A stretch of DNA of 64,000 bases from Balneolaceae bacterium (GTDB taxonomy: Bacteria; Bacteroidota; Rhodothermia; Balneolales; Balneolaceae): positions 186,001 to 250,000 of the forward strand of contig JAEPQH010000003.1 of NCBI GenBank assembly GCA_017640605.1, given 5' to 3'. Positions 56,633-61,258 of this stretch are shown here, piece by piece (positions within the stretch are counted from its first letter, which is position 1; each line of letters opens with the position of its first letter). The translations under genes and the position numbers were made by a program. A model generated the notes under the pieces. It was not told where the DNA came from, did not search any database, and worked only from the letters and a program-made list of their open reading frames with translations.

Positions 56633-58384
56633 TTGAAAAAGACGCCACCAACTAACCCACATCTACACTCATTTAAACTGCTTTGTACCAGCCTGTTAGT
56701 GTTGTTGACAGGCACCCCAATACTTGGGCAAATAGTGGGAGTTAACGCTGAAGTACAGAACCCTGAACTAGTAATTTTTCAGCATTTTGATTCAACAGGA
56801 TCTCTTAATCATTCGCATGATCATTCCTTCATAAAATGTCTTACGCCGTTAATTATTTCATTGAATGATCAAGAATCCGAAATATCACCTGCTCTAAAAA
56901 CTGCATTCAATGCGTTGGATGCTCCTCGTTCTTTTTCTGCCTCTGAGTATATTTCGCCGGGAGGAAAATTCAGAATTCATTACGAAACCAGTGGCTCTCA
57001 TCGTGTTCCCTCCGATGATTTTAACTCCAATGGAATTCCAGATTATGTAGAAGAAATTGCAGAGGCGGCCGACTCATCCTATCAACATGAAATAGTTACT
57101 TTAGGTTTTACCGACCCTATCGGAGATGGCGAAGTATACGATGTGTTTGTGCAAAACTTAGCCAATATCGGTGCCTATGGATTAACCAACAATCGAACTT
57201 CCGGTAGTTTTTCGTGCAATTCTAATTCACCCGGCACCTGTATTTATATTGAAAATGATTTTGTGGGCTATCCGCCGAATACTGATCCCGAGGGAGATGT
57301 AATTGGAGCTGTAAAAGTAACTATGGCACATGAGTTTAAACATGCCATTCAGTTTGCCCAAAATAACTGGCAGGGTGAAACAGATCGTTGGGCCGAAATG
57401 GATGCTACTTTAATGGAAGAAGTAGTGTACGATGATGTAAATGATTACTACAACTACATCACCGGGTTTGCCTCCGACCTATTCAATTTTCCTGCTACTT
57501 CTTTAACCGCCGGTTCTTACGAGGATATAACCTGGGCGCTGTATTTCTACGAACGTTTTGGACCTTTTTTCTGGACTGAAGTTTGGCAAGTGATCGAAGC
57601 AAATACAAGCATTACTCTTTTAGATGCTATCAGAACTGTGTTGGTAGGTCAGAGCGATTCTTACGACGCTGCAGTTTTAGAATCGTATATGTGGCATTAT
57701 GCAAGTGGGTCGGACTTTTCGGGAACTGATTTTGGATTCGAAGAGCGGTTGCAGTATCCCAACCCCAGAATTTCAGCAACCTACACAGAGTTACAATCTC
57801 AATTAACCGATACATTGTTTTTATCACCTTTCGCGGCTCGTTACTATACGCTCGAAAACGAGTTCAATACGATTTCTGAGGGTTACGTGAAGTTCGACTT
57901 TTATGTAGAAAATCCTGAGGTGCATCTCGGTTTAATAGCTTACATGCCAGATGGCTCAACTCGCATTCAAACCGCAATTGGCTCTCGCGATCGATTATCT
58001 GGAAGTATAGAAACCAATTGGTTGTATAACGAGATTGATAAAATTGGCTTGGTAGTGATGAATAGCTCGGTAGATGAAAGCAATGGATATGCATTCCGAT
58101 TTACCGACTACTTTATCGCCGAAGAAATACAGCTAGCCCAAAACTATCCGAATCCATTTTACCCGCGCACCAAAATTCGGGTAACCATTCCAAGAACGCA
58201 AAATATTACCTTACGTGTATTCGACTCAATTGGCAGAGAAATTCAAATCGTTTACAGTGGCACTATCGAGGCCGGATTTCATGATATTCTCTTTGATGCA
58301 CGAGCACTTTCTTCAGGCATTTATTTTTACCAATTGATTAGCGAAGACGGCATCAAAACAAAAGCAATGACGCTTATAAAATAG
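56633..58384 (+). CDS. Secreted MXAN_6640-type putative metalloprotease with T9SS sorting domain
   Basis: A 583-residue protein. The start is TTG at 56633, and a signal peptide follows (residues 15-33, ending LGQ). The zinc motif HEFKH (near residue 233) is in VTMAHEFKHAIQFAQNNW, with a downstream Glu-rich region, as in MXAN_6640-family proteins. The last 85 residues are a type-A T9SS sorting domain: AQNYPNPFYPRTKIRVTIP, then LSSGIYFYQLISEDG and KTKAMTLIK. It should be exported by Sec, cross the outer membrane through the T9SS and be attached at the surface or released. Substrate unknown. Confidence 0.87.
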   Translation: MKKTPPTNPHLHSFKLLCTSLLVLLTGTPILGQIVGVNAEVQNPELVIFQHFDSTGSLNHSHDHSFIKCLTPLIISLNDQESEISPALKTAFNALDAPRSFSASEYISPGGKFRIHYETSGSHRVPSDDFNSNGIPDYVEEIAEAADSSYQHEIVTLGFTDPIGDGEVYDVFVQNLANIGAYGLTNNRTSGSFSCNSNSPGTCIYIENDFVGYPPNTDPEGDVIGAVKVTMAHEFKHAIQFAQNNWQGETDRWAEMDATLMEEVVYDDVNDYYNYITGFASDLFNFPATSLTAGSYEDITWALYFYERFGPFFWTEVWQVIEANTSITLLDAIRTVLVGQSDSYDAAVLESYMWHYASGSDFSGTDFGFEERLQYPNPRISATYTELQSQLTDTLFLSPFAARYYTLENEFNTISEGYVKFDFYVENPEVHLGLIAYMPDGSTRIQTAIGSRDRLSGSIETNWLYNEIDKIGLVVMNSSVDESNGYAFRFTDYFIAEEIQLAQNYPNPFYPRTKIRVTIPRTQNITLRVFDSIGREIQIVYSGTIEAGFHDILFDARALSSGIYFYQLISEDGIKTKAMTLIK

Positions 58385-59348
58385 CTCGCTCTTTTAATCC
58401 GGCTAATGATGTGTCAAAATCAGTTAGATTGATCGAAGTAATCGAAAGCATACGTAGCATTTTGATTTCCATCATAGGTGCAGCAAGTTCTCGCCAGGCA
58501 ATGTATCCGTCTTTAAAAATGAAGTTGCTCGAATTTTTCTCTTCCAATACTTGAATAGTTTCTTCCACCGTCAAATCCTGAGTGTAGGCTAGAAGTCCTG
58601 CCATTAAAATATTGACTAACCCGAAAACTTTGGAATTCGTGGTGTAATCGAAACTTGGAAAGGAATGAATATTATGTCCCGCAAACTTCAATGCAACGTT
58701 GGCGTCGCGTGCATACAGCATAACTTCAGCCAAAAACTCCGGAGTTGGGGCCGGCGTACAGTTCACTTTTAATCCGGAAAAAAGGTAATTATCAATTTTT
58801 CGCTTGAGCACCGATTTGTTGTGCACAGCAATCACTTTAATAATCTTTTTCGCCAGTTCAATTTCAATATCATGTCCGGGTATTTCAAAGTATACACGGT
58901 GAGGGAGTAGTCTAGAATCTGCCGAAGTTGTTACAACAGCTTCAATGGCTTTTACCAGTTCCTCAGCATTAAAATTATCGACACTTACCTTAGGCAAAGT
59001 TAACTCAAGGATATTGGTACGTACTTCTCCGGGAAATCCTGAATGCGCCGAAAGAATATCTTTCTCAATATTCAGAACTGTGTTTTTGAATTCGTGCAGT
59101 GTGTCTACAATTGGGCCAAAAATACAGAGATTCAGTGGACCTTGTAACCGGTCCCGACGATCTGCGAACTGAGCCAGGTCGGGAATTTGTGAATGTGGAA
59201 TCACAAATCGTGAAAGAATCCAACTGTCTTGGGTATTGGTTATGCGGGTATATTCGCGCAGAGCGTCGCGCAAGGGTAAGCTTGTCGGCGGCTTCAGTGC
59301 TGCGTAATCTACAGCATCGTTTAGTAATTGCTCTACTGATTTAGTCAT
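58374..59348 (-). CDS. Conserved protein of unknown function, possibly TIM-barrel-like
   Basis: A 324-residue cytoplasmic protein, mixed alpha/beta. The segment SGLKVNCTPAPTPEFLAEVM then ALKFAGHNIHS recalls a little-studied family in which the equivalent block reads roughly RCGG...PS.E.LA, then PFKATAGLHHP. If that match is right, the Lys and His would be conserved while the rest has drifted. No enzyme assignment. It converges with the T9SS protease gene with an 11-bp overlap. Confidence 0.6.
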   Translation of the reverse strand: MTKSVEQLLNDAVDYAALKPPTSLPLRDALREYTRITNTQDSWILSRFVIPHSQIPDLAQFADRRDRLQGPLNLCIFGPIVDTLHEFKNTVLNIEKDILSAHSGFPGEVRTNILELTLPKVSVDNFNAEELVKAIEAVVTTSADSRLLPHRVYFEIPGHDIEIELAKKIIKVIAVHNKSVLKRKIDNYLFSGLKVNCTPAPTPEFLAEVMLYARDANVALKFAGHNIHSFPSFDYTTNSKVFGLVNILMAGLLAYTQDLTVEETIQVLEEKNSSNFIFKDGYIAWRELAAPMMEIKMLRMLSITSINLTDFDTSLAGLKERAIL

Positions 59349-59480: not shown

Positions 59481-59762
59481 ATGGGAAAAATAGACACTAT
59501 CAGGCAATTAAGTGAACGCACAGGCTTCACGCAACAAGAAACTGAACGAATTTATAATCGCTTGGTAGATATCTTATCGGACCATTTAGCCAATGATGAA
59601 GGTTTTACTTTGCCAAAAATCGGAAGTTTTCATTCTCGGATTCGCGACAGCTATCAAACATATAATCCGCATTATAAGGGGATGATTCAGTTACCTAAGA
59701 AAAAAGTGGTACAGTTCACACAAAGTACCACACTTAAAGATGAACTGAACGAGGGGAAATAA
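59481..59762 (+). CDS. HU-family-like DNA-binding protein
   Basis: A 93-residue protein. The start (IDTIRQLSERTGFTQQETER) and LPKIGSFHSRIRDSYQTYNP follow the HU/IHF fold, with the beta-arm region shortened or altered relative to HU (KMIQLPKK-type ending, KKKVVQFTQS). It overlaps the next gene by one base, so the two are made together and may form a heterodimer with the HU domain of the next protein. Confidence 0.78.
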   Translation: MGKIDTIRQLSERTGFTQQETERIYNRLVDILSDHLANDEGFTLPKIGSFHSRIRDSYQTYNPHYKGMIQLPKKKVVQFTQSTTLKDELNEGK

Positions 59763-61258
59763 TGAAGGATAAGGTAACACTAGCCGATATTGTTGAGCAG
59801 CTTTCCGATGAAACCTACATTTCAAAAACGGCCGCGCAGGAGTTTATTTCGCATCTCACTGATGTTTTACTCGATGACATTCAGGATAAAGAAAAAGCAG
59901 CAATCACCAATTTTGGAAGCTTTACCGTAGTTAATGTTGCAGAGCGCAAAGGCGTAAATCCACAAACCGGCGAAACAATTACCATTCCTGCTCATAAGCG
60001 CCTTTCTTTTACGCCTTACAAGGCCCTTGAGAAAAAGGTGAATCATGAATTTGATCACTTAGAAGCGCGCGTTTTAGAGGATAACTCGGCCGATGAAAAA
60101 CCAGAGAAAGAAACTTCTAAACCTAAGTCAGAGACAGAAACGAACAGTGCGGAAGCATTATTCAATACATTAACTACTTCGCCGGGCAAGCAACCGTCAC
60201 CTGATGACGATCCATTTAATTTTGAGGAAGATGAGGATTCCAACGAGGCTAAAATGCCCGAACCACAGGAAATCCAGGATACAGAAGTAGCGTCTGAATC
60301 TATATCCACACCCATATCCGAAGATGAATTACTCGACGATATTCTTGGACTTTCTGAAGAAGAAAACAAAGAAGCAGAAAACGATGATAAGTTTACGTAT
60401 GAAGTACCTATACCATCATCATCTTTCGAAATCGACGATAGCAACCTAGGCCCTGATTATTCTACTGGAAAAAAGCCCGAACCATCGTTTGAATTAGACG
60501 AAACCGAAGATTTGGAAGAAGAGGAAGTGGAGATTGAAGCTACGGAAGAAGAAACTTCTAAAGAAACAGAAGAGAATAACTCAGCTTTAAAAACACCTGG
60601 GCTCCCAAATCGTGATAAAGCGGGAGTTTCACCCACACTTCTTCTTGGTGTTGTAGGTGTATTTCTGATATTGATTATAGCCACATGGTTCTTATTCTTC
60701 CGAACCGATACTCAGACTCAAACGGCTGATTCATCCACTCCACCAGCTACGCAAGCTGATCCAATTAATGATCCTTTGGCTTTTGAACCACCGGCTGAAT
60801 CGGAACCAACAATATCTGAAGCCGAAACAGAATCTGAAAGTCAGGTGATCCCGATGATTGCTGATGATGTGGACTTATCAGAGAATCCCGGCGAAATGAT
60901 GTCCATCGAACAAAGCGAACCTCAGATTGAGCTTCAGGAAGTGCTTGAGATAACTTATACCACCAGTTCCGGCGTTTGGATTTATGAAATTGCCCGACAA
61001 ACATACGGAAACACACGCTTGTGGCCGTTGATTTTTCAAGCAAATTACACAACGGCGAACGATCCGGATTTGATCTTACCCAACGTGAATTTGAATATCC
61101 CGAAATTGGAAGGAACTACCGATAATCCAAGTTCTGAAGATTACCGCCGTTTGGCTGATGCTGCTCGATATGTTGCCGTTGCCTACGAGCAAGCAGGTAA
61201 TTCGGCGCAAGCTGAAGAATACCGTAAGGCGGCTATTTGGTACGAATCTATGCGCTAG
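59762..61258 (+). CDS. HU-domain protein with transmembrane span and periplasmic LysM
   Basis: A 498-residue fusion. Residues 1-95 form a complete HU domain (ITNFGSFTVVNVAERKGVNP, QTGETITIPAHKRLSFTPYK). A very acidic, low-complexity linker follows to about residue 285. One membrane span lies at about 290-313 (TLLLGVVGVFLILIIATWFL). The outer part is acidic, then has a LysM-type domain (about 397-448, IYEIARQTYGNTRLWPLIFQ) and a short helical end. The topology implies DNA binding inside and peptidoglycan binding outside, i.e. a nucleoid-envelope tether. It is co-transcribed with the small HU-like gene. Confidence 0.83.
   Translation: MKDKVTLADIVEQLSDETYISKTAAQEFISHLTDVLLDDIQDKEKAAITNFGSFTVVNVAERKGVNPQTGETITIPAHKRLSFTPYKALEKKVNHEFDHLEARVLEDNSADEKPEKETSKPKSETETNSAEALFNTLTTSPGKQPSPDDDPFNFEEDEDSNEAKMPEPQEIQDTEVASESISTPISEDELLDDILGLSEEENKEAENDDKFTYEVPIPSSSFEIDDSNLGPDYSTGKKPEPSFELDETEDLEEEEVEIEATEEETSKETEENNSALKTPGLPNRDKAGVSPTLLLGVVGVFLILIIATWFLFFRTDTQTQTADSSTPPATQADPINDPLAFEPPAESEPTISEAETESESQVIPMIADDVDLSENPGEMMSIEQSEPQIELQEVLEITYTTSSGVWIYEIARQTYGNTRLWPLIFQANYTTANDPDLILPNVNLNIPKLEGTTDNPSSEDYRRLADAARYVAVAYEQAGNSAQAEEYRKAAIWYESMR

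Follow-up and report, generated by a model that had tools for sequence, protein, structure and literature searches.

HU and IHF proteins are architectural regulators, and proteins that join a CCDC81-like HU domain to a transmembrane (TM) helix and a SPOR domain have reportedly been predicted in Bacteroidota. A protein-protein role is said to have been predicted for CCDC81-type HU domains. To our knowledge, nucleoid positioning in Bacteroidota is poorly described. Elsewhere, HubP localizes oriC to the pole, FimV uses its LysM domain to bind sacculi, and loss of FimV in P. putida leaves chromosome segregation unaffected (PMC12918733); architecture alone is therefore no proof of function. Kbp (YgaU) combines a BON domain with a LysM domain.

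We analyzed a stretch of 64,000 nucleotides from a Balneolaceae bacterium (the window), which encodes a small HU protein directly followed by a membrane-spanning HU-LysM protein. The features of this locus are listed below.

59481..59762, forward strand: small HU partner, 93 aa, with a YNPHY beta-arm motif (PF00216, 6e-18; P63, H64, P72 and K74 invariant in 21/21)
59760..59764, forward strand: TAATG stop/start overlap (from the sequence and the gene spacing of relatives)
59762..61258, forward strand: membrane-spanning HU-LysM protein, 498 aa (open reading frame, HU and LysM profiles, hydropathy, AlphaFold model)
59777..60043, forward strand: HU domain, residues 6-94, with beta-arm and intercalating proline P67 (PF00216, 1.7e-23)
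60047..60616, forward strand: acidic, disordered cytoplasmic linker, residues 96-285 (14 K/R, 62 D/E; pLDDT <50)
60632..60709, forward strand: single TM helix, residues 291-316 (hydropathy; helix in the AlphaFold model)
60713..60943, forward strand: second acidic, disordered linker, predicted periplasmic, residues 318-394 (composition; AlphaFold model)
60947..61105, forward strand: LysM-fold domain, residues 396-448 (NCBIfam, profile matches, AlphaFold model)
61133..61252, forward strand: TPR-like helical hairpin, residues 458-497 (pLDDT >90)

Much of this layout had been anticipated in a preliminary description of the window. The HU domain that it called complete is confirmed by Pfam, with scores of 83.1 bits for the large protein and 65.3 bits for its partner against a gathering cut-off of 22.4 (PF00216). 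The highly acidic linker, put at about 190 residues, is indeed 190 residues long, and its acidic residues outnumber the basic ones 62 to 14. The one proposed TM helix agrees with hydropathy, which finds a single hydrophobic segment (residues 286-317), with the AlphaFold model, and with relatives, since all 21 Balneolaceae and 79 Bacteroidales large proteins have exactly one. A tail of 181 residues, also acidic, extends past this segment. The AlphaFold model of the whole protein contains the HU domain with its beta-arm, the TM helix, a LysM-type fold (residues 396-447) and a two-helix hairpin, with both linkers disordered. The hairpin is conserved and was absent from the preliminary description; its TPR-like matches in a structure search with the AlphaFold model are weak.

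The protein shares a LysM-type periplasmic domain, a single TM helix and a long, acidic, unstructured cytoplasmic region with HubP and FimV, and as in those proteins the acidic region lies between the TM helix and a cytoplasmic domain. The order is opposite, however, with the cytoplasmic part at the N terminus and LysM at the C terminus, and an HU domain, paired with a small HU protein, takes the place of the TPR domain of FimV. No FimV model appeared among the NCBIfam matches of the window protein. The likeness is best read as convergence of a proposed HU-LysM tether with HubP and FimV. HU and IHF share with the pair the fold, the beta-arm and, in Balneolaceae, the intercalating proline, and the two-subunit arrangement that we infer is IHF-like; here, in contrast, one subunit is membrane-anchored, arm arginines are fewer and the charge is near neutral. 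A literature search found no paper on an HU-LysM protein and no dedicated Pfam or NCBIfam model matched it, so the pair, which is real and conserved, is apparently undescribed in the sources searched. The pair also had no PADLOC defense-system match. A promoter and terminator scan found none, a scan that is uninformative for Bacteroidota.

The small HU-like partner had been placed directly upstream, separated by one base. Its position stands, but there is no gap: the TAA stop (59760-59762) and the ATG start (59762-59764) share one base, and this TAATG overlap makes translational coupling of the two genes likely. Both genes occur in the same order, with the small one directly upstream, in all 20 other Balneolaceae loci, which come from diverse genera; they overlap by 4-11 bases in 18 of these 20 relatives and lie 2-3 bases apart in the other two. 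Such conservation of the architecture rules out chance. Across 196 genomes searched in the class, about 60 of the 74 members of the window's family, which we take to be Balneolaceae on the basis of sequences and GTDB placement, encode the large protein (counted at E below 1e-14); the other families yielded no large protein, only matches to ordinary HU or plain LysM proteins. A profile search of the phylum added four more distant cases of identical layout, and a scan of named genomes returned at least 520 relatives. The best 80 of these belong to Bacteroidaceae and other Bacteroidales, including Bacteroides fragilis, Phocaeicola, Prevotellaceae and Dysgonomonas. Among these 80 loci (L096-L175), rimO lies upstream in every one, the large open reading frame is present in 79, the small HU gene sits between them in nearly all (it was not recognized in L173), and moxR and DUF58 genes follow the pair in most. 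A chance open reading frame or an isolated fusion is ruled out by this gene pair, conserved in Balneolaceae and Bacteroidales. In two related Bacteroides genomes (L161:3804-4562 and L166:3501-4280), the large open reading frame is short and stops a little past the TM helix, before LysM, perhaps through truncation or a frameshift.

The large proteins of the two lineages match each other in a profile comparison at E 3.9e-45, and the alignment runs past the HU domain to residue 110 with a common N-x-P-[FY]-x-H-x-E motif. In a tree of 90 HU sequences, including four reference HU/IHF sequences and used only for its main splits as columns were few, the partner HUs of both lineages form one branch (support 100/98), the HU domains of the large proteins form another (99/87), and both stand apart from ordinary HU/IHF. 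By these splits, the pair is either old or has been passed on as a unit by transfer. The partner scores above 110 bits in nine genomes with the large gene. In eight Balneolaceae genomes without it, the partner search reached 56 bits at most, the level of ordinary HU; two reduced genomes (G136 and G138) gave an intermediate 63 bits. Six empty syntenic sites in three genera have lost both HU genes and leave the flanking genes about 60-430 bases apart. Joint absence in 8/8 genomes and six clean joint deletions indicate that the two genes are lost together; as judged from gene content, the pair is thus dispensable in Balneolaceae. The partnership of the two proteins, suggested earlier from their adjacency, gains strong support from this joint gain and loss and from the HU tree. 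Mirror-tree correlations were 0.82 between the two subunits, 0.84 between the LysM part and the partner, and 0.90 between the LysM part and the large HU; the correlation of the subunits is no stronger than that with the LysM part and so says nothing beyond shared ancestry.

Lysines and arginines within 12 residues of the TM helix were counted on each side. Balneolaceae proteins average 3.1 on the N-terminal side and 0.9 on the C-terminal side, with the N flank richer in 18 of 21, equal in three and lower in none (p 1.7e-4); Bacteroidales proteins average 2.9 and 1.4, with the N flank richer in 57/79 (p 5e-9), and both p-values are too small because the relatives are not independent. By the positive-inside pattern, HU is therefore predicted to be cytoplasmic and LysM periplasmic, in keeping with the topology proposed before. 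Linkers in the Balneolaceae large proteins range from 52 to 258 residues. About 95% of large proteins in both lineages have acidic linkers, and those of Bacteroidales are as acidic as those of Balneolaceae (-0.20 versus -0.21 per residue), which makes it unlikely that the acidity merely reflects the acidic proteome of a halophile.

Taken together, these data are best read as an HU heterodimer anchoring DNA to the membrane and wall, a candidate function to which we give an even chance. The small and large proteins would form an HU-type heterodimer at the cytoplasmic face of the inner membrane, the small protein and the large protein's HU domain together gripping chromosomal DNA. The acidic disordered linker would act as a flexible spacer that repels DNA, and beyond the TM helix, which crosses the membrane, LysM and the helical hairpin would hold peptidoglycan or a wall-linked partner. 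The outcome would be an auxiliary, non-essential device that tethers or positions the nucleoid as HubP and FimV do while contacting DNA itself. For such a tether speak the separate old branches of partner and large HU, their joint loss, the gene overlaps, the topology, the LysM fold and the acidic linkers, as well as the precedent of FimV, which has the same LysM, TM and acidic-linker parts and binds sacculi, and of HubP, which places oriC (PMC12918733). The absence of a segregation effect on FimV loss in P. putida counts against it. The wider proposal of an old two-subunit HU complex in Balneolaceae and Bacteroidales that links DNA directly to peptidoglycan through the inner membrane, with no ParA or other adaptor, we hold more tentatively, at somewhat below an even chance. 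If true, a direct DNA-to-wall tether would extend across both lineages, human gut Bacteroides included. The pair also shows a nucleoid protein family divided into soluble and membrane-anchored subunits with joint inheritance. Being conserved, dispensable and present in tractable Bacteroides, and having the look of a direct linker between DNA and envelope, it makes the question of nucleoid positioning testable.

The HU domains themselves give mixed signals on DNA binding. The HU-domain model matches HU-DNA structures in structure comparison (Z 8.6). In Balneolaceae, P67 and R62 of the large HU are invariant in 21/21; the proline at the intercalation position thus occurs in all 21 large proteins, as it does in all 21 small ones, and one arm arginine (canonical R58) is retained in every large protein. 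This retention of beta-arm, proline and arm arginine argues for the tether. Against it, most of the remaining arm arginines have been lost, and the net charge of the HU domains averages close to neutral, at -0.2 in the large and +0.9 in the small proteins; the organism's housekeeping HU carries just +1. In Bacteroidaceae, the proline of the large HU, too, is replaced by V or I in 39/40, whereas the partners keep it in 39/40, are basic (mean +5.2) and have K/R at arm positions 53-55. This division suggests to us a heterodimer with unequal subunits, of which the partner may make the larger share of the DNA contacts in Bacteroidaceae. The near-neutral charge, the lost arginines and the missing proline would also suit a scaffold that has lost DNA binding, in which HU serves as a protein-protein dimer module joining a cytoplasmic client to the wall. 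However, arm and proline are invariant in the Balneolaceae large proteins and kept in nearly all partners, and the basic Bacteroidaceae partners with their arm K/R also count against a scaffold, which we consider unlikely, if the foremost of the alternatives.

The armless HU-like domain of another protein of the same genome also counts in favor of the scaffold. This protein of 590 aa (contig C14; L057:6087-7859, reverse strand) has an HU-like domain that lacks the arm, a very acidic linker, a TM helix and a SPOR domain (3.5e-9), a domain with no match in the 498-aa window protein. HU-SPOR proteins had been named as a related variant, aptly, given that this genome encodes one, though with no beta-arm in its HU-like domain. 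HU-TM-SPOR and HU-LysM proteins have in common an N-terminal HU-type domain, a long acidic linker, one TM helix and a C-terminal wall-associated domain. The HU-SPOR protein differs in having SPOR rather than LysM and no beta-arm, and its gene has no adjoining small HU partner and is followed instead by ExbB/TolQ and ExbD/TolR genes. The LysM pair is thus the one that keeps DNA-binding features. HU-SPOR matches were found in 14/14 Balneolaceae tested, including genomes without HU-LysM, with some matched at one end alone.

The C-terminal domain had been described as LysM-type, and this identification is upheld by profile matches to PDB LysM chains (Kbp, 1.3e-11; TsaP, 4.5e-6; SafA, 3.2e-4) and by the model fold. 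Pfam did not match LysM in the window protein and did so in 2/21 and 13/27 relatives, and the NCBIfam model NF008399 (peptidoglycan-binding LysM/Kbp) matches residues 382-448 at 4.6e-7, below the family cut-off. Modeled alone, the C-terminal part has a mean pLDDT of 86.7 and a beta-alpha-alpha-beta LysM fold; a structure search matches it to Kbp LysM (Z 6.0-6.4) and, at lower scores, to chitin- and peptidoglycan-binding LysM structures; NlpC/P60 and CBM50 LysM are among its matches. A G-x-[ST]-L loop is usual in glycan-binding LysM domains, and the fold does not need it. This loop is absent from the window's clade and present in 10/21 Balneolaceae (absent from 11) versus 73/79 Bacteroidales. 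In most of the window's clade (60947-61105 and relatives), a tryptophan-containing motif occupies its place, which suggests a different LysM ligand there. Membership of the LysM fold stands, glycan binding by the window copy is less certain, and wall binding appears likelier in the Bacteroidales proteins than in the window protein. The missing loop counts against the tether, as does Kbp, the closest protein in LysM sequence and structure and no such wall anchor. Because the LysM part has K+-binding Kbp as its top PDB match, a potassium or osmotic sensor also comes into question. Kbp, unlike the HU-LysM protein, has neither HU nor TM helix and has its K+ site in the BON domain (PMC9481166), a domain that Pfam did not detect in the window protein. 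On this missing domain we rejected the sensor as very improbable.

The tether thus remains our preferred reading, and the scaffold shares most of the remaining probability with a membrane-bound regulator, in which LysM would sense the state or fragments of the wall and the HU heterodimer would bend a few promoters and alter transcription. This regulator, also unlikely and ranked after the scaffold, fits the known role of HU/IHF, the LysM loop altered as if for another ligand in the window's clade, the dispensability of the pair and its position beside moxR/DUF58 in Bacteroidales. Against it, neither a distinct domain for sensing or output nor a protease site was recognized, the long disordered linker would be a poor conduit for conformational signals, and the three neighborhoods have no linked target operon in common. 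Two of these neighborhoods are in Balneolaceae: one, that of the window, has hemW/gamma-carbonic anhydrase beside the pair, whereas in the second the pair lies between genes that we take, from their sequences, to encode aconitase and a Dabb-like protein. The neighbors are housekeeping rather than segregation genes, which counts against the tether, and they give little functional hint.

The Bacteroidales arrangement of rimO, HU pair and moxR/DUF58 is probably the start of the Bat (aerotolerance) operon. In the window, a 324-aa protein (58374-59348, reverse strand) with no Pfam or NCBIfam match is a conserved neighbor of the HU pair within one clade, where it persists even if the pair is lost. 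A putative MXAN_6640-family metalloprotease that carries a type IX secretion tail (56633-58384, forward strand) is likewise conserved beside the pair in one clade.
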